Source of the DNA: Parapedobacter koreensis
GTDB lineage: Bacteria; Bacteroidota; Bacteroidia; Sphingobacteriales; Sphingobacteriaceae
Assembly: GCF_900109365.1 (NCBI RefSeq)
Contig: NZ_FNZR01000005.1
Span: 186,001 to 250,000, forward strand
DNA length: 64,000 bases
Reading direction: 5' to 3'
In this document: positions 49,559 to 57,133 of the stretch, in pieces
How positions within the stretch are numbered: position 1 is the first letter of the stretch
How the letters are laid out: each line of letters begins with the position of its first letter
Made by a program: the position numbers and the translations under genes
The notes under the pieces: generated by a model
What the model saw: the letters and a program-made list of their open reading frames with translations, nothing else
What the model was told of the DNA's origin: nothing
The model's database searches: none

Positions 49559-50551
49559 TTATGCCTCTTCCAGTTCGAATTGCTCGCTGATTTCATCGAG
49601 CACGGCATGTATATCGGCAATGTCGGCGAGTGATACCAGCTTCATGCGGTATTCCTTGAAATGTGGTATGCCCTTGAAATAGTTGGCATAATGACGGCGC
49701 ATCTCGAAGATACCGGTTTTCTCCCCTTTCCATTCCACGGACTGCTTAAGGTGTGTACGGCAGATAGCCACCCGCTCGGCGATGGTGGGTCCGGGCAAAT
49801 ATTCACCCGTGTGGAAGAAGTGTTTGATTTCGCGGAATATCCACGGGTAGCCGATGGATGCGCGGCCAATCATGATGCCGTCTACCTCGTATTCCATGCG
49901 CCATGCGGCGGCTTTTTCCACGCTGTCGACGTCGCCGTTGCCGAAGATGGGGATGCGTATCCGGGGATTTTGCTTCACTTCACGGATAAGGTGCCAGTCG
50001 GCCTGCCCCTTGTAGAGCTGTGCCCGCGTGCGCCCGTGGATGCTGAGGGCTTGGATGCCCACATCCTGCAAGCGTTCAGCCACTTCATATACATTCTTGG
50101 TATTATCATCCCACCCGAGGCGAGTCTTGACGGTCACGGGCAGGTGCGTGGCGTCTACCACGGCTTTCGTCATAGCCGTCATCTTGTCGATATCCTGTAG
50201 CAGGCTTGCTCCCGCGCCCCGGCAGGCTACGTTTTTGACGGGACAACCATAGTTGATATCAATTAGGTCGGGCCCTGCCTGCGAGGCGATTTCGGTGGCC
50301 TCACGCATCGTATTGATGTCACTGCCGAAAATCTGGATGCCGATAGGGCGTTCGTATTCGAAAATGTCCAGTTTCTGCCGGCTCTTGGCGGCATCGCGGA
50401 TGAGTCCCTCGGAGGAGATGAATTCGGTATACATCATATCCACCCCGTTTTGTTTGCATACAAAACGGAAAGGCGGGTCGCTTACGTCCTCCATCGGTGC
50501 GAGGAGCAAGGGAAATTCACCAAGGTCGATATTGCCTATCTTGACAGCCAT
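49559..50551 (-). CDS. tRNA-dihydrouridine synthase (Dus, DusB-like)
   Basis: A 330-residue FMN enzyme that reduces uridines in the D-loop of tRNA with NADPH. N-terminal LLLAPMEDVSDPPFR, the catalytic cysteine Cys103 in DINYGCPVKNVACRGAGASLL, KTRLGWDD and GRTRAQLYKGQADW, and GIMIGRASIGYPWIF match DusB-type proteins; the C-terminal helical tRNA-binding domain follows. The gene has its own promoter box between it and trpC, so it is a separate unit. Ends 4 bases from the convergent flippase stop. Confidence 0.94.
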   Translation of the reverse strand: MAVKIGNIDLGEFPLLLAPMEDVSDPPFRFVCKQNGVDMMYTEFISSEGLIRDAAKSRQKLDIFEYERPIGIQIFGSDINTMREATEIASQAGPDLIDINYGCPVKNVACRGAGASLLQDIDKMTAMTKAVVDATHLPVTVKTRLGWDDNTKNVYEVAERLQDVGIQALSIHGRTRAQLYKGQADWHLIREVKQNPRIRIPIFGNGDVDSVEKAAAWRMEYEVDGIMIGRASIGYPWIFREIKHFFHTGEYLPGPTIAERVAICRTHLKQSVEWKGEKTGIFEMRRHYANYFKGIPHFKEYRMKLVSLADIADIHAVLDEISEQFELEEA

Positions 50552-50574
50552 GCGGAATCTTTTGGTATCCGGCG

Positions 50575-50582
50575 CAAAAATA
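50575..50582 (-). promoter_or_regulatory. -7 promoter box of dus (TATTTTTG)
   Basis: Exact TAnnTTTG on the minus strand, 23 bases before the dus ATG and in the 54-base gap after trpC, which makes dus independent of the trp operon. Confidence 0.5.
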
Positions 50583-50605
50583 CGGAAATTTTGCTAATCG
50601 GATGA

Positions 50606-51388
50606 CTATAAAGACACTACAAAGTGCTGTATTGCTTGCGTAGGATCTTCGGTCTTCATGAAATTCTCGCCAATCAAGAAAGCCTGGAAACCGGCTTGGC
50701 GTAAGTTTCGGATGGTAGCGGGATCGCTGATGCCGCTTTCGGAAACCTTGATAAACTGGTCGGGAATTAAATCAACTAATTCCAAGGAATGCGCTAATGA
50801 AACAGTGAAGTCCTTCAGGTTTCGGTTGTTTACGCCAATGGCATCCACGCTGTCCATCATGCTGCGCTCCAGTTCGTCGCGCTCATGCACTTCCAGCAGT
50901 ACGCTAAGGCCGAGCGATTGGGCGGCTTCCGACAAGGATTTAAGCTCGGCAGGTTGGAGTACCGCCGCGATCAGCAGAATGATATCCGCCCCATGGGCCT
51001 TGGCCTCCACCAGCTGGTATGCATCAATGATAAACTCCTTGCGAAGCAGCGGGATGTGTAATGCTGCCCGTGCGGCTACCAAATCGTCAAGGCTGCCCTT
51101 AAAGAACTCCTGATCCGTGAGTACCGATATCGCCGACACGCCGGCGGCTTGGTAACCCGCCACCACTTCGGCCACGGGTGAGCGGTCGTTGATGATTCCC
51201 TTTGACGGCGAAGCCCGCTTGTATTCAGCGATGATGCCGTTTGTGGTGGGCGACAGCACAGATTCGCGCAACGAAAGGCATTCGCGGGCAAACAGCGGCT
51301 TCTTTTCCAGATCGGCTATTGTAACGGCTTTTTTTGCCTGCTTGACTTCCTGTCTTTTGTTGGCGACGATGGTTTCTAAGATGGTCAT
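50606..51388 (-). CDS. trpC: Indole-3-glycerol phosphate synthase
   Basis: A 260-residue TIM-barrel enzyme that closes the indole ring in tryptophan synthesis. Landmarks: IIAEYKRASPSKGIIND (substrate loop with Lys), LTDQEFFKGSLDDL, LLRKEFIIDAYQLVEAKAHGAD and VNNRNLKDF and KVSESGI. The ATG overlaps the trpG stop by 4 bases. No trpD is found between trpG and trpC, and trpF, trpB and trpA are not in the window either. Confidence 0.96.
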   Translation of the reverse strand: MTILETIVANKRQEVKQAKKAVTIADLEKKPLFARECLSLRESVLSPTTNGIIAEYKRASPSKGIINDRSPVAEVVAGYQAAGVSAISVLTDQEFFKGSLDDLVAARAALHIPLLRKEFIIDAYQLVEAKAHGADIILLIAAVLQPAELKSLSEAAQSLGLSVLLEVHERDELERSMMDSVDAIGVNNRNLKDFTVSLAHSLELVDLIPDQFIKVSESGISDPATIRNLRQAGFQAFLIGENFMKTEDPTQAIQHFVVSL

Positions 51389-52047
51389 ATTTCTTCGGCA
51401 GTCAGTGATTGGAGATCCGTAAATGGGGGGTTAGTGGTCTGTGGGGGGCGGCCGTTTGTGAGTGACAACCAGTTGGCGATCATTTCCTTGCCATATTGGG
51501 TAAGTACCGATTCGGGATGGAATTGCAACCCCTTGACATCCAGCGTACGGTGGGAAAGGCCCATGATGACCCCTTGCTCGTCTTCGGCAGTGATACGAAG
51601 CGTGTCGGGTAGTCCATCCCGTGATACGGCCCAGGAGTGATAGCGTCCCACGGAAAACGACAGGGGCAACCCGCTAAAAATGGGCTCATCGGATGCGGTG
51701 ATCGACAGCGGCGTGGCGGTGCCATGTACGGGCTTGGCGAGGTTGTACAGCGAACCGCCATATACTTCGGCAATGGCCTGCTGGCCGAGGCAGATGCCGA
51801 GGATGCTTTTGCTTGGGCCGTATTTGCGGATGACATCCAGCAATAGGCCAGCTTCCTCCGGGATGCCCGGGCCGGGCGATAGCAAGATTTTATCGAAAGC
51901 GGCCACCTCTTCAAGCGCGAATTTATCGTTGCGCCACACGGTGGCCTCATGCCCGCATTCGTGCAGGAGGTGTACGAGATTGAAGGTGAACGAATCGTAA
52001 TTGTCTATCACCAATATTCGGAGTGATGGTTGTTGTGGGGTGCTCAT
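51385..52047 (-). CDS. trpG: Anthranilate synthase component II (glutamine amidotransferase)
   Basis: A 220-residue class I glutaminase that feeds ammonia to TrpE. The catalytic triad is visible in ILGICLGQQAIAEVYGG (Cys nucleophile) and GLQFHPESVLTQYG (His, Glu); the N-terminal VIDNYDSFTFNLVHLLHE and LLSPGPGIPEEAGL are typical. The ATG at 52045-52047, 7 bases after the trpE stop, is chosen over an upstream start inside trpE because the extra residues are not family-like. Such proteins also serve PabB in folate synthesis in some bacteria. Confidence 0.96.
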   Translation of the reverse strand: MSTPQQPSLRILVIDNYDSFTFNLVHLLHECGHEATVWRNDKFALEEVAAFDKILLSPGPGIPEEAGLLLDVIRKYGPSKSILGICLGQQAIAEVYGGSLYNLAKPVHGTATPLSITASDEPIFSGLPLSFSVGRYHSWAVSRDGLPDTLRITAEDEQGVIMGLSHRTLDVKGLQFHPESVLTQYGKEMIANWLSLTNGRPPQTTNPPFTDLQSLTAEEI

Positions 52048-52054
52048 TATCGTA

Positions 52055-53464
52055 TTAAATATCTTGTGCCAGCTCCAGCGCTCTGCGCAGGGCAGCAATT
52101 TTGTTGTTGACTTCCTGAAGTTCGTTTTCGGGGTTGGAATCTGCCACAATACCTGCTCCTGCTTGATAATGGAGGGTATTGTTGCGGCTTAAGAATGAGC
52201 GTATCATAATGGCATGGTTAAAGTCGCCATTGAAGCCCATATACCCGATAGCCCCGCTATAAAAGCTCCGTTGCTGGTTTTCGTAGCGATCGATCAGCTG
52301 CATGGCCATATGTTTGGGTGCCCCGCTGAGCGTACCGGCTGGATAGGTATCGCCCACGACGTCGAAAGGGTTTACACCCGCTTTCAATACCCCGCAAACT
52401 TTGGAAACCAGGTGGATGATGTGCGAATAATACTGCGTCTCCTTGTAGGATTTGACATGAACATGTTCGCAATGGCGGCTCAAATCATTCCGGGCGAGGT
52501 CAACCAGCATGACATGCTCGGCACTTTCCTTGGGATCTTCTTTAAGCGCTTCTGCTATTTTTTCATCCTGTTCTTGGTTGCCGCTACGCTTGAATGTGCC
52601 AGCGATGGGATAAATGGTCGCTTCGTTGTTGCGGATGGTCAACTGGGCTTCAGGAGAAGAGCCGAAGAGTTTGAAATCACCGTAGTCAAAATAAAACAGG
52701 TAAGGAGAAGGGTTGATGGAACGCAACGTGCGGTATACGTTGAATTCATCGCCTAAAAAGGGTCGCGAAAAGCTTCTGGAAGGCACAATCTGGAACACAT
52801 CGCCCCGGTAGATGTGGGTTTTCATTTTTTCAACAAGTGCCCTGAACCCTTCATCGGTCATATTGGATGTTTCCTCCCCATTGATGGAAAAGCTATATTC
52901 CGGAAAATTTTTATTTTGGATAAGGTATTGGATTTTTTCCAGGCCGGAGGGGCCTTCTTCGTTTTCAAGCTGGTGTTCAAAGATATAAAGCTGATTGCGG
53001 AAATGATCGATGGCAATCACGTACCGATAAACATGATACTGCAAGAAAGGAATATTCCGGTTGGGATCCATTGGGCTTTTCAGCTCGATATCCTCGAAGT
53101 GGCTTACTGTGTCAAAGGTGAAAAATCCAAATAACCCATTGGATATGGCCTTAAAGTCCGATACCGGTGTTTCTTCAAAGGCTTGCCTGAATAGGGAGAC
53201 TTCTTCGCGAAGGTTGATATCTGCGGCGGGTTTTCTTTCAATGGGGCTGCCAGGGTATTGTATTTCGAGGAAATTCCCGTCCAGCTTGATACCGGCAATG
53301 GGCTGGCAACAAATATAACTCATGTTGTTTTCGCGGCTGTGGTACTCTGAGCTTTCCAGCAACAAGCTATTAGGGAATACATCGCGCAGCCTGAGATAAG
53401 TACTTACCGGCGTGGTCGTATCCGCCAGCAAGTGTTTGTAGTTGGTTTTAAATCGATAAGCCAT
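52055..53464 (-). CDS. trpE: Anthranilate synthase component I
   Basis: A 469-residue enzyme, first step of tryptophan synthesis from chorismate. The feedback-binding LLESSEYHS (residues 35-43) fits tryptophan inhibition. Core motifs: GDVFQIVPSRSFSRP, IYPIAGTFKRSGNQEQDE, LVDLARNDLSRH, GAPKHMAMQLIDRYE and QAGAGIVADSNPENE. First structural gene after the attenuator; its ATG is 21 bases past the terminator T tract. Slightly shorter than proteobacterial TrpE, normal for Bacteroidota. Confidence 0.97.
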   Translation of the reverse strand: MAYRFKTNYKHLLADTTTPVSTYLRLRDVFPNSLLLESSEYHSRENNMSYICCQPIAGIKLDGNFLEIQYPGSPIERKPAADINLREEVSLFRQAFEETPVSDFKAISNGLFGFFTFDTVSHFEDIELKSPMDPNRNIPFLQYHVYRYVIAIDHFRNQLYIFEHQLENEEGPSGLEKIQYLIQNKNFPEYSFSINGEETSNMTDEGFRALVEKMKTHIYRGDVFQIVPSRSFSRPFLGDEFNVYRTLRSINPSPYLFYFDYGDFKLFGSSPEAQLTIRNNEATIYPIAGTFKRSGNQEQDEKIAEALKEDPKESAEHVMLVDLARNDLSRHCEHVHVKSYKETQYYSHIIHLVSKVCGVLKAGVNPFDVVGDTYPAGTLSGAPKHMAMQLIDRYENQQRSFYSGAIGYMGFNGDFNHAIMIRSFLSRNNTLHYQAGAGIVADSNPENELQEVNNKIAALRRALELAQDI

Positions 53465-53484
53465 ATTTTCCTTTTAATGGACAA

Positions 53485-53517
53485 CAAAAAACCCGACGGA
53501 TTTTTAAAACGTCGGGG
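53485..53517 (-). terminator. trp attenuator terminator
   Basis: On the minus strand CCCGACG (53516-53510), loop, CGTCGGG (53498-53492) then TTTTTTG. It is the termination state of the trp leader. Its 5' arm, together with flanking bases (53518-53508), is also complementary to the leader segment AACGTCGGGC (53580-53571), which is the alternative antiterminator pairing. Confidence 0.92.
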
Positions 53518-53544
53518 CATATATGTTAAAAATCTGAATTGTGA

Positions 53545-53631
53545 TTAGCCACATGTAACCGTTCCAGCCTGCCCGACGTTATTTCCATCGAGCCACCACC
53601 ATAATGCGATGCGGAACTTATTCATTAACAT
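53545..53631 (-). CDS. trpL: trp leader peptide with three consecutive Trp codons
   Basis: A 28-codon ORF on the minus strand, starting at ATG 53629-53631 (a second ATG follows at 53623-53625) and ending at TAA 53545-53547. The peptide reads MLMNKFRIALWWWLDGNNVG then QAGTVTCG. Codons 11-13 (53601-53593) are TGG TGG TGG. Such Trp clusters in a short ORF upstream of trpE are the mark of ribosome-mediated attenuation: scarce Trp-tRNA stalls the ribosome and the downstream RNA folds as antiterminator. The segment that pairs with the terminator arm begins at codon 18 of this same ORF. Nearly leaderless: its ATG is 7 bases from the -7 box. Confidence 0.9.
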   Translation of the reverse strand: MLMNKFRIALWWWLDGNNVGQAGTVTCG

Positions 53632-53638
53632 AGTGAGG

Positions 53639-53646
53639 CAAAAATA
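53639..53646 (-). promoter_or_regulatory. -7 promoter box of the trp operon (TATTTTTG)
   Basis: Exact TAnnTTTG on the minus strand. A TTG (53661-53663 or 53665-53667) lies at about -33 spacing. It sits directly upstream of the leader peptide and so drives trpL, trpE, trpG and trpC. Confidence 0.65.
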
Positions 53647-53694
53647 TAAAAAAAAACCACCAAACAAATTTTTTGCAATAAAAATCAAAAAAAA

Positions 53695-54372
53695 TCATTC
53701 ATCCAGCAGATCCGGTCTTCGGGATTTCGTGCGGGCGAGGGCCTGCTCGTCCCGCCATTGATCGATGGCACTTTGGTTGCCACTGAGCAGCACATCAGGT
53801 ACCTTGTGCCCAAACCAGTCGGCAGGCCGGGTATATACGGGAGCATCCAACAAACCGCCTTGAAATGAATCAGAAAGCGCGGATGTTTCATCGGAGAGGA
53901 CACCGGGGAGGAGGCGTACCACAGCATCTACTAGGACTGCCGCAGGCAACTCGCCGCCCGATAGGACATAATCGCCGATGGATAGCTCGCGGGTCACATA
54001 GATGTCACGTATTCGCTGGTCAATACCCTTATAATGGCCACAGAGAATAATGAGGTTGGTTTTGACAGACAAGTGGTTGGCAATGGTCTGATTGAGCGTT
54101 TCGCCGTCGGGTGTCATGAAGATGATCTCGTCATATGCCCGTTCGGCCCGGAGCTTCTCAATGCATGCAGCAAAAGGTGCCACCTGCATCACCATGCCGC
54201 TGCCACCGCCGTATGGATAATCGTCTACGCTTTTATGCTTGTTATCGGCATAATCGCGCAAGTTGTGCACCACGATTTCACAAAGCCCTTTTTTTTGCGC
54301 GCGTTGTAATATAGAGTGAGCGAAGGGACTTTCCAATAGGCCCGGCAATACCGTGATGATGTCAAACCGCAT
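53695..54372 (-). CDS. trmD: tRNA (guanine-N1-)-methyltransferase
   Basis: A 225-residue knotted SPOUT methylase forming m1G37 in tRNA. Landmarks: [67 protein letters not shown] (SAM knot) and [14 protein letters not shown]. Normal length. Own promoter box 4 bases before the ATG, and no evident terminator before the trp operon promoter 48 bases after its end. The usual rpsP, rimM and rplS neighbours are not in the window. Confidence 0.96.
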
Positions 54373-54376
54373 AGGG

Positions 54377-54384
54377 CAAAGATA
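54377..54384 (-). promoter_or_regulatory. -7 promoter box of trmD (TATCTTTG)
   Basis: Exact TAnnTTTG on the minus strand, 4 bases before the trmD ATG, so the trmD transcript is probably leaderless. Confidence 0.6.
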
Positions 54385-54482
54385 GGATTTTATCGGCTAC
54401 CTTATTCCTTATTTGCTGAGAAGTCAATACCGAAACCCTTGTGTAAATAATGATGATAGCTGCTAGATTGCTCTTTAATCAG

Positions 54483-54490
54483 TATCTTTG
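54483..54490 (+). promoter_or_regulatory. -7 promoter box of the AraC-type gene (TATCTTTG)
   Basis: Exact TAnnTTTG, 9 bases before the ATG at 54500, predicting a very short leader. Confidence 0.55.
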
Positions 54491-54499
54491 CGGGGAGAG

Positions 54500-55306
54500 A
54501 TGGCAACACAGGCAAACACTTTTTTTCATGGTGAGGCGATTTCCGCTCAAAAAATAAACGATTGCTTACTGGAAAAAACAGTCTACGGGGGTAACGACGC
54601 CTTCGAAGATTGGCACGCTCATGATTACCCCAGTATAAGTCTATTAGTAAATGGCGCTTACACAGAGGAAATCCAAGGACGTAACTATCAACGAATAGTG
54701 GGCAACCTGAAGTATATTGAGGCAGGTGTAACCCATCGGTGCCGTAATTACAGCGCCAACACCCGGAAAATCAACCTTACCTTTAGTCCGTTTTTTCTGA
54801 ATGAATTGGGCATGACGGAAGGTTCCCTCAAGCGGTTGACGGACGAGCCCAGGCGGACTAAGGTCTCGCTACTGAAGCTGTATCACAAACTTGAATACAG
54901 CCGTGTTTCCTGCGCTGATACCCTGGGAGCAATGTTTTACGACCTATTCCTATCCCCATCCGCCCCCCCTCGGACTAAACGCGAAAAGAATTTACCGCTG
55001 TGGGCAAAACGACTTCGGGAAATCCTGGAGGACGAGGGGCATACACCTATACACCTGGAGGAGTTAGCCCGCCGAGTGGGCGTGCATCCAGTGACCATCT
55101 CGCGGTATTTCCCGGTCTATTTTTCAGCGACTTTCACAGAGTTCGTTCAACGGATAAGGATAGATAAAGCGATGCGCACAATCAAGTCAACCGATGCTTC
55201 ACTTACGGCTACTGCTTACGCGTGTGGTTTTGCCGACCAAGCCCATTTCACCCGCACCTTCAAGGCCATCACAGGTTTTCTACCCAAGCAATTTAGTAAG
55301 CTATAA
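54500..55306 (+). CDS. AraC-family transcriptional regulator
   Basis: A 268-residue protein from the ATG at 54500; a TTG at 54488 is inside the promoter box. The N-terminal cupin-like domain has YPSISLLVNGAYTEEIQGRN, and the C-terminal double helix-turn-helix is GHTPIHLEELARRVGVHPVTISRYF and TATAYACGFADQAHFTRTFKAITGFLP. The ligand and targets are unknown. Possible targets include the S41 peptidase 51 bases downstream on the same strand, but that gene has its own promoter box. Confidence 0.92.
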   Translation: MATQANTFFHGEAISAQKINDCLLEKTVYGGNDAFEDWHAHDYPSISLLVNGAYTEEIQGRNYQRIVGNLKYIEAGVTHRCRNYSANTRKINLTFSPFFLNELGMTEGSLKRLTDEPRRTKVSLLKLYHKLEYSRVSCADTLGAMFYDLFLSPSAPPRTKREKNLPLWAKRLREILEDEGHTPIHLEELARRVGVHPVTISRYFPVYFSATFTEFVQRIRIDKAMRTIKSTDASLTATAYACGFADQAHFTRTFKAITGFLPKQFSKL

Positions 55307-55345
55307 CAGGTTAAATCTGTTCAATTTCTGATGGCGGCTGTACGG

Positions 55346-55353
55346 TAGCTTTG
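55346..55353 (+). promoter_or_regulatory. -7 promoter box of the S41 peptidase gene (TAGCTTTG)
   Basis: Exact TAnnTTTG, 4 bases before the ATG at 55358, so the message should be leaderless. Confidence 0.55.
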
Positions 55354-55357
55354 CGCC

Positions 55358-57133
55358 ATGAAACGATTATTGTTATTCTTCCTGTCCTTCGTGGGTTTTA
55401 TTTCTTCGCTGCGTTCTTTTGGCCAGGAATTCCGCTACTATGAACGGATACTTGATGCAAGAAAATTGCTTTACGAAAAAAAGGACTATACGCAAGCGGT
55501 AGCGGCTTATGCGGCAATCTTTCAAGCAACCGATGACATCGAGCCGCCCGATAAATACGATGCAGCATGTGCGTTGGCCATGGCTGGCCGCACTCAGGAA
55601 GCATTGGCGTACCTAAAGTCCATCATCGGCGTTTCATATTTCAATTATGATTACCTGAAGAAGGATACTCTTCTGGTCGCTCTCCATCAATATCGAGCAT
55701 GGGATAAGTTGCTGGGCCGGGCCCATAAAACCAAACTCCAGCCTTTGACCAAGGCGCAGATGTACCGTGATTTCGATTTGCTGGTTCAATCGTTGATGGA
55801 AGCGCATACCGGCCTATTCTGGTACAATGCCAAACCACAGTTTGACAGCCTTTGTCTGGTGCTGCGGTCGAAGATTAAGCGGCGAGCTAATGTATTGGAG
55901 TTTTACAGGATTATCGCACCGCTTATCGGTTTTACCAAGGAGGCGCATACCTTCGTACAACTGGGCCGGGCGGCGCAGTCCTACATGCGGTATAAAGGTT
56001 GTTACTTCCCTTTGTTTGTCAGAATATTAGATGGCCAGTGCTACATCCTCAATGATGTCGGTAATGCAGGCACCAAAGGATTCCAGCTCACGGGGATAAA
56101 CGGGGTGAGTATCGACAGCATTATGGATACGTTTATGGCACTCGAACCGTCTGACGGCTATAATATCAGCAGCAAATACCGATGGATTGAATCGGGTTAT
56201 AACTTCAACGCATATTTCGGTCGATGTTTTCCGATGACCGGCAGTTTTGATATAGACGTAATCGATACAGCTACAGGCGCATCCCGTCGAATAAAGCGTA
56301 TACCATCGGTTTCGCTGAATGAACTGGCCAATCTGAACGACTCGCTGAACCGTGTGTATCCAGCCCGAAGCTTCGACCGGCCGGCGGTATTCTCAATAGA
56401 TACGATGAACTCAACAGCCGTAATGACGCTGAACACCTTTAGCGCTGCCGCCTACCGCAGTGCTGGAATGGATTTTGAACAATTCGTTGCGGAAGCGTTT
56501 CAGCAACTGCGTGACAACCAAATCCGCAATCTCATCCTGGATATCAGAAAAAATGAAGGCGGCAACGAAGGGTATGAAGACGAGGTGATGTCTTATTTGG
56601 TGAGTATCGATTACAACAAATTTAACTATGTGCAAGCTTCCGCATTTACGTATTCGTTTTATGCCTATTCTGATTACAAGCATGATTACCATAAATTGGA
56701 CAGTATCATGCGGACGGAGCATTACTTGGATATGGACGGACGGATTTTGCGGAAGCCCGGTATTCTAAAACATGCGAAAGCAAAACCGAATCCTTTCGAT
56801 GGAAAACTTGTAGTCCTCACAGGAGGCCTCACCTATTCTGCCGGGGCAACACTTGCTTCGTTGCTTAAAATCCATACGGACGCAACCTTCGTCGGCGAAG
56901 AGGCCGGCGGCGGTTATCATGGGAACACTTCCGGTTTAAGGATTGTCCTGAAACTGCCATACTCGAAACTGGAGATTGGTATTCCGTTGTTGAAATTCGT
57001 TTTGGATACCGATGGAAAAGATGCTCAATTTGGTCATGGGTTAATACCCGATTACCCGGTACAACCAACGATTGCAGATTTCATGCAGGGACATGATCCG
57101 GTAATGGAACGGGCAAAAGCCCTTTTGCAATAG
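55358..57133 (+). CDS. Secreted S41 family peptidase (C-terminal processing-like)
   Basis: A 591-residue protein with a signal peptide (LLLFFLSFVGFISSLRSFGQ), an N-terminal helical segment resembling tetratricopeptide-like repeats (KDYTQAVAAYAAIFQATDD, CALAMAGRTQEALAYL, residues about 40-90) and a C-terminal tail-specific-protease domain. The catalytic Ser494 lies in VVLTGGLTYSAGATLAS, with LILDIRKNEGGNEG and EEAGGGYHGNTSG as conserved strands. It has no clear PDZ domain in its short middle part. Substrates are unknown. Confidence 0.88.
   Translation: MKRLLLFFLSFVGFISSLRSFGQEFRYYERILDARKLLYEKKDYTQAVAAYAAIFQATDDIEPPDKYDAACALAMAGRTQEALAYLKSIIGVSYFNYDYLKKDTLLVALHQYRAWDKLLGRAHKTKLQPLTKAQMYRDFDLLVQSLMEAHTGLFWYNAKPQFDSLCLVLRSKIKRRANVLEFYRIIAPLIGFTKEAHTFVQLGRAAQSYMRYKGCYFPLFVRILDGQCYILNDVGNAGTKGFQLTGINGVSIDSIMDTFMALEPSDGYNISSKYRWIESGYNFNAYFGRCFPMTGSFDIDVIDTATGASRRIKRIPSVSLNELANLNDSLNRVYPARSFDRPAVFSIDTMNSTAVMTLNTFSAAAYRSAGMDFEQFVAEAFQQLRDNQIRNLILDIRKNEGGNEGYEDEVMSYLVSIDYNKFNYVQASAFTYSFYAYSDYKHDYHKLDSIMRTEHYLDMDGRILRKPGILKHAKAKPNPFDGKLVVLTGGLTYSAGATLASLLKIHTDATFVGEEAGGGYHGNTSGLRIVLKLPYSKLEIGIPLLKFVLDTDGKDAQFGHGLIPDYPVQPTIADFMQGHDPVMERAKALLQ

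Follow-up and report, generated by a model that had tools for sequence, protein, structure and literature searches.

The trp operon leader of Escherichia coli, trpL, encodes a leader peptide with adjacent tryptophan codons and comprises four RNA segments, numbered 1 to 4, and a T tract; in Rfam it is represented by family RF00513 (Trp_leader). In the alphaproteobacterium Sinorhizobium meliloti, attenuation of trpE(G) involves a leaderless trp leader ORF, trpL, on the RNA rnTrpL (PMC7298713). Within the Bacteroidota, the Rfam family RF01692 (Bacteroid-trp, "Bacteroidete tryptophan peptide leader RNA"; Weinberg et al. 2010, PMC2864571) is located upstream of trpE and combines a WWW leader peptide with a downstream arm and a terminator, and the relevant sections of two papers on Flavobacterium psychrophilum, a species of another family than Parapedobacter, discuss inferred leader-peptide attenuators of the same logic for amino-acid operons including trp, describing neither a near-leaderless start nor Parapedobacter (PMC6414381, PMC9723704). 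An earlier note on the DNA analyzed here had presented attenuation in a member of the Bacteroidota as notable. The attenuator is real and its kind is conserved across the phylum, but, as the work just cited makes clear, that kind is already described.

The window, i.e., the whole stretch of 64,000 nucleotides from Parapedobacter koreensis that was analyzed, carries the leader on the minus strand between trmD (53695-54372) and trpE. The genes trpE, trpG, trpC and then dusB follow 3' of the leader (Table 1). The closest TrpE to that of the window is found in Parapedobacter luteus (94% identical). For trpG, the listed ORF start was set mechanically, and the recognized domain starts at residue 44-46. 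The promoter box, the leader ORF of 28 codons with TGG at codons 11-13, three RNA arms and the T tract had been placed by the earlier note, and every coordinate proved right on reading the sequence. All the parts that led it to call the attenuator complete are indeed present, but segment 1 (53593-53586) and its pairing with segment 2 had been missed. On folding, GCTCGATG (53593-53586), the codons right after the Trp run, forms a hairpin of 8 bp (-11.1 kcal/mol) with CGTCGGGC (53578-53571), the 3' eight bases of arm 2, and the window thus holds the full classical set of a 1:2 anti-antiterminator, a 2:3 antiterminator and a 3:4 terminator. The element resembles E. coli trpL in its adjacent Trp codons, its segments 1-4 and its T tract. 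It differs in having no Shine-Dalgarno sequence, a near-leaderless start, a promoter of another class and an antiterminator arm that lies inside the leader ORF. The masking of segment 2 by a ribosome at the leader stop, a detail of the E. coli system that the mechanism can do without, is not to be expected in Parapedobacter, the window included, as the stop codon is located 23 nt downstream of arm 2.

Table 1. Coordinates of the trpE leader, the adjoining trp genes and the second trp leader of P. koreensis
Feature	Position	Strand	Basis and remarks
Putative -33 element TTTG	53665..53668	-	sequence; at about -33; AAAATTTGTTT retained by most Parapedobacter
-7 element TATTTTTG (TAnnTTTG), sigma-ABfr promoter	53639..53646	-	sequence; consensus per PMC6847099
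Predicted transcription start, 5'UTR of 3 nt	53634	-	inferred from F. johnsoniae spacing
Leader peptide ORF MLMNKFRIALWWWLDGNNVGQAGTVTCG*, 28 codons	53545..53631	-	sequence and 9/9 Parapedobacter species
Trp codons 11-13, TGG TGG TGG (TGGTGGTGG)	53593..53601	-	sequence; cluster kept in 81/81 trpE leaders
Segment 1 GCTCGATG, partner of segment 2 in the terminating conformer	53586..53593	-	folding
Segment 2 (arm 2) AACGTCGGGC, antiterminator 5' arm within the leader ORF	53571..53580	-	sequence; covaries with segment 3
Leader stop codon	53547-53545	-	sequence; 23 nt past arm 2
Segment 3 (arm 3) GCCCCGACGTT, common to antiterminator and terminator	53508..53518	-	sequence, covariation
Segment 4 (arm 4) CGTCGGG, terminator 3' arm	53492..53498	-	sequence, covariation
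T tract (T6) of the intrinsic terminator	53486..53491	-	sequence
trpE, anthranilate synthase component I	52055..53464	-	Pfam PF00425 and PF04715; NCBIfam TIGR00564 best hit
trpG, glutamine amidotransferase of anthranilate synthase	51385..52149	-	PF00117, TIGR00566
trpC, indole-3-glycerol phosphate synthase	50606..51388	-	PF00218, NF001377
Second trp attenuator, upstream of trpD-trpF-trpB	L208 (G000:C18:461915), bases about 1340-1500

We conclude, with a probability of roughly 0.9, that the element controls trpEGC by ribosome-mediated transcription attenuation, setting expression according to the supply of charged tRNA-Trp. Its anatomy, its conservation, the changes in its helices and its genomic context are shown by the sequences, and we infer how the element would depend on tryptophan, where its transcript would start, how far a stalled ribosome would reach and in which order the RNA would fold. 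Transcription would begin about 3 nt upstream of the leader's ATG, which would let a ribosome load nearly at the 5' end. With Trp-tRNA scarce, it would stall at Trp codons 11-13 and cover segment 1, leaving segment 2 free to capture segment 3, and RNA polymerase would continue into trpE. With plentiful tryptophan, the ribosome would pass and segment 2 would be locked by segment 1 or, in relatives whose leader stops early, by the ribosome at the stop codon; segment 3 would then pair with segment 4 and transcription would end at the T tract.

The folding energy of the 150-nt leader taken alone is only mildly unusual (z -1.6), and the case therefore rests on comparison between species. The comparison set comprised 80 loci fetched with TrpE from named genomes and the window itself, i.e., 81 trpE loci. 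An ATG-initiated ORF with clustered Trp codons no more than 16 codons from its start is present upstream of trpE in every one of them; dinucleotide shuffling left such an ORF in an average of 2.1 of 81, and the reverse strand has one in 1 of 81. The leader reads WWW in 60 of the 81 loci and in none of the shuffles. Both the Trp run and the two alternative stems, whose absence from relatives would have spoken against the earlier note, are kept in related genomes. In nine Parapedobacter species the leader ORF is exactly 28 codons long without a single indel, while the non-coding stretch that follows contains nine gapped columns. Thirteen further trpE loci (G011, G014 and other families of the class) were judged by eye; eleven or twelve of them have a leader with at least two Trp codons, one leader starting with TTG and one with GTG, and among the thirteen there is one WCC leader and one with only one Trp. 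The WCC leader, MNFNQKINWCCVAELRA* at G038:C55 (L153), with one Trp followed by two Cys codons, may be a sensor of another or a mixed type. P. luteus (L031), the closest relative, and several other species (L039, L065, L067 and L070) have Arg in place of the third Trp (WWR); the window keeps WWW.

Outside the WWW and the arm, the leader peptide is poorly conserved, and the variation is not concentrated at third codon positions, as is expected of an ORF that serves to place a ribosome. The distance from the last Trp codon to the start of arm 2 has a median of 13 nt (10-90% range 11-18) and is 12 nt in the window. Given the ribosome footprint, arm 2 is expected to start just outside the edge of a ribosome stalled on the Trp codons. 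A separate observation concerns the non-coding linker between the leader stop and arm 3, where 37 of the 81 leaders, from several genera (e.g., L043, L060 and L032), share a conserved box, AATCAACC(AAAACC), that has been lost from the linker of the window (53547-53519). On folding, this box gave no consistent single hairpin, and it has no role in the attenuator model. Conservation of such a box without a role in the switch, the constitutive production to be expected of a terminated leader RNA and the documented trans roles of rnTrpL and peTrpL in S. meliloti (PMC7298713) would all suit a plain intrinsic terminator or the source of a trans-acting small RNA or peptide, with a leader ORF that is no Trp sensor. 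We regard this as very unlikely, since the Trp cluster in all 81 loci, the poor conservation of the rest of the peptide and the constant spacing from Trp codons to arm point to ribosome position, and since the window itself lacks the box. Any trans roles would come in addition to attenuation, not in place of it.

The earlier note had stated that the middle segment can pair with either neighbor but not with both, and pairing, covariation and folding all bear out that the 2:3 and 3:4 helices are mutually exclusive. A terminator hairpin was detected in 79 of the 81 trpE loci; the scan missed two Fibrisoma loci, where one can be seen by eye. In 50 of the 81 loci, arms 2 and 3 pair better than shuffled sequences do (p<0.05). 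Covariation was assessed in an alignment of 44 leaders with 500 shuffles and slid versions as controls. Cells changed on both sides of the helix numbered 16 for 2:3 (5.1 +/- 2.8 in shuffles) and 10 for 3:4 (2.6 +/- 1.4), and the covariation scores of both helices were equalled by none of the 500 shuffles and lay above all slid versions; as the sequences are related, the shuffle counts are not independent tests and are inflated by relatedness, and we weigh them as supportive rather than as p-values. In the clearest case, seven Sphingobacterium loci display a three-way change from GCGTCGGG/CCCGACG/CGTCGGG to GCATCGGG/CCCGATG/CATCGGG with the core GTC/GAC/GTC to ATC/GAT/ATC, the fourth arm reading TATCGGG in two of the seven. 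The 1:2 helix is paired in 90.5% of cells over the 44 sequences; it shows no excess of compensatory changes among them and varies mostly between G-C and G-U on one side.

The same helices bear on the idea of a coupling device, in which translation of the leader would govern the access of Rho or the initiation of trpE rather than intrinsic termination. The distance of 70-190 nt between the leader stop and trpE in relatives would fit such a device, as would a terminator that is weaker in the window than the antiterminator (-10.4 kcal/mol for 3:4 vs -15.2 kcal/mol for 2:3 as a duplex). However, practically every leader has a GC hairpin with a T tract, and covariation is seen in the 3:4 pairs; we consider this alternative very improbable.

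RF01692 (gathering cut-off 49 bits) matches neither the window nor any Parapedobacter genome, and across the phylum it is confined to a single family, with matches in 17 of 198 genomes. In Flavobacterium-type genomes these matches precede trpE (example leader MQTILNNTWWWNNLRQTS*). They differ from the window in their arm sequences, and most of them have a longer stretch from promoter box to ATG. The element in the window is the positional and functional counterpart of RF01692, below the threshold of that model. A WWW leader that does score with RF01692 was also seen at a contig end (G022:C41:7443-7568, L160), beside a recR-like gene and with no trp gene directly after it on that contig. RF00513 matches two Fulvivirga-type relatives below its cut-off and has no match in the window. 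In Bacillota, trp genes are controlled by T-boxes sensing uncharged tRNA, by TRAP-like proteins or by riboswitches, and with any such sensor the Trp codons would be incidental. These readings were rejected on the lack of a family match and on the universal Trp codons of the relatives, and we give this alternative scarcely any credence: cmscan of positions 50000-56000 found no Rfam family, T-box included, even at E values up to 1, a search of the narrow stretch at E up to 10 gave only weak matches to unrelated families, and the predicted 5'UTR ahead of the leader ORF spans only a few nucleotides.

A TAnnTTTG box is located 6-7 nt before the leader ATG in 9/9 Parapedobacter species and within 3-12 nt of it in 67 of the 81 loci. 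In Flavobacterium johnsoniae, the G of the -7 box lies at -5 relative to the measured start (PMC6847099), and the two spacings together predict a 5'UTR of 2-3 nt in all nine Parapedobacter species. Ordinary genes of the phylum seldom have 5'UTRs this short: in Bacteroides thetaiotaomicron about 3.7% of 5'UTRs are below 10 nt (PMC7366714), and 5.5% of mRNAs are leaderless in F. psychrophilum (PMC9723704). In a loose control, 7 of the 44 window ORFs of at least 200 aa had a box 3-10 nt before some in-frame ATG within their first 40 codons. Judged from sequence, the predicted near-leaderless start is a conserved property of these trp leaders, most Flavobacterium-type trp leaders having a longer gap between promoter box and ATG. 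The earlier note was correct that the Shine-Dalgarno signal is missing and the start nearly leaderless, but overstated its case in calling this unusual: Bacteroidota mRNAs generally lack a Shine-Dalgarno sequence (PMC6847099), and a leaderless trp leader is known from S. meliloti (PMC7298713). The latter is unrelated in sequence, and its RNA begins at the ATG, as opposed to the predicted position about 3 nt upstream in the window.

The attenuator was also modeled by folding. With the leader of the window blocked to 10 nt past the last Trp codon as a model of the stall, P(1:2) fell from 0.95 in the free RNA to 0.00 and P(3:4) from 0.92 to 0.00, and P(2:3) rose from 0.04 to 0.81. This agrees with the earlier proposal that the antiterminator arm, placed inside the leader ORF 12 bases past the last Trp codon, is left free by a stalled ribosome. 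When full-length leaders were folded at equilibrium, the terminator persisted in most relatives even with a stalled ribosome. As the terminator nearly always wins at equilibrium, such folds are uninformative for most relatives as a test of the switch, which must be co-transcriptional, and transcripts truncated before arm 4 were used instead for 78 leaders. The mean probability of arm 3 being held by upstream pairing was 0.74 with a stalled ribosome, 0.47 with a ribosome at the stop and 0.50 in naked RNA; stall and stop differed by at least 0.2 in the expected direction in 43 of the 78 leaders, and by that much in the opposite direction in none. For the window the respective values were 0.90, 0.86 and 0.25, arm 3 not being released by a ribosome at the stop because the stop lies so far past arm 2, and some other Parapedobacter species showed little or a smaller difference between ribosome states. 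In early-stop relatives the leader stop abuts arm 2, giving the geometry for stop-codon masking; the expected correlation between 1:2 strength and stop-to-arm-2 distance, with stronger hairpins at more distant stops, was not seen (rho -0.10, p 0.38). On these models, termination in Parapedobacter probably depends on the 1:2 hairpin reforming behind a moving or released ribosome, and on kinetics. A tentative extension, which we consider rather doubtful at present, is that across the Bacteroidota the near-leaderless start might load the sensing ribosome as the RNA emerges, replacing Shine-Dalgarno-driven coupling of ribosome and RNA polymerase, with 1:2 refolding and not stop-codon masking enforcing termination in Parapedobacter.

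The trpE leader has a companion in its own genome, where another, divergent WWW leader, MNFQTEHITWWWHSN*, stands before trpD-trpF-trpB and has its own terminator, which differs in sequence. The eight other Parapedobacter species likewise have this second leader (one with GWW), and so do most of the other Sphingobacteriaceae that were inspected. When 100 relatives were searched with a covariance model of the trpE leaders, it matched trpE leaders and then trpD leaders, and in genomes with known trp positions nearly all matches at E up to 1e-3 were located, as judged by eye, at trpE or trpD leaders. Fulvivirga (L102, L105 and L106) carries two tandem WWW attenuators in the 400 bases upstream of trpE, with a separate leader ORF and terminator for each; two serial terminators could give a steeper response. 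For His-run leaders with the same promoter spacing, the pattern matches were scattered and none was identified as an operon leader. One near-leaderless ORF, MNNALIINNHHHHHH (G050:C9:490454-490507), resembles a his-operon leader.

Mildly new are the breadth of occurrence, the conserved near-leaderless start predicted for these leaders, the paired leaders of trpEGC and trpDFB and the tandem attenuators in Fulvivirga. The picture is one of a phylum that has its own promoter type, initiates without a Shine-Dalgarno sequence and by default controls tryptophan synthesis through classical ribosome-mediated attenuation; of its trp attenuators the Rfam model covers one family only. The conserved near-leaderless start is relevant to the way ribosome and RNA polymerase stay coordinated in the Bacteroidota.
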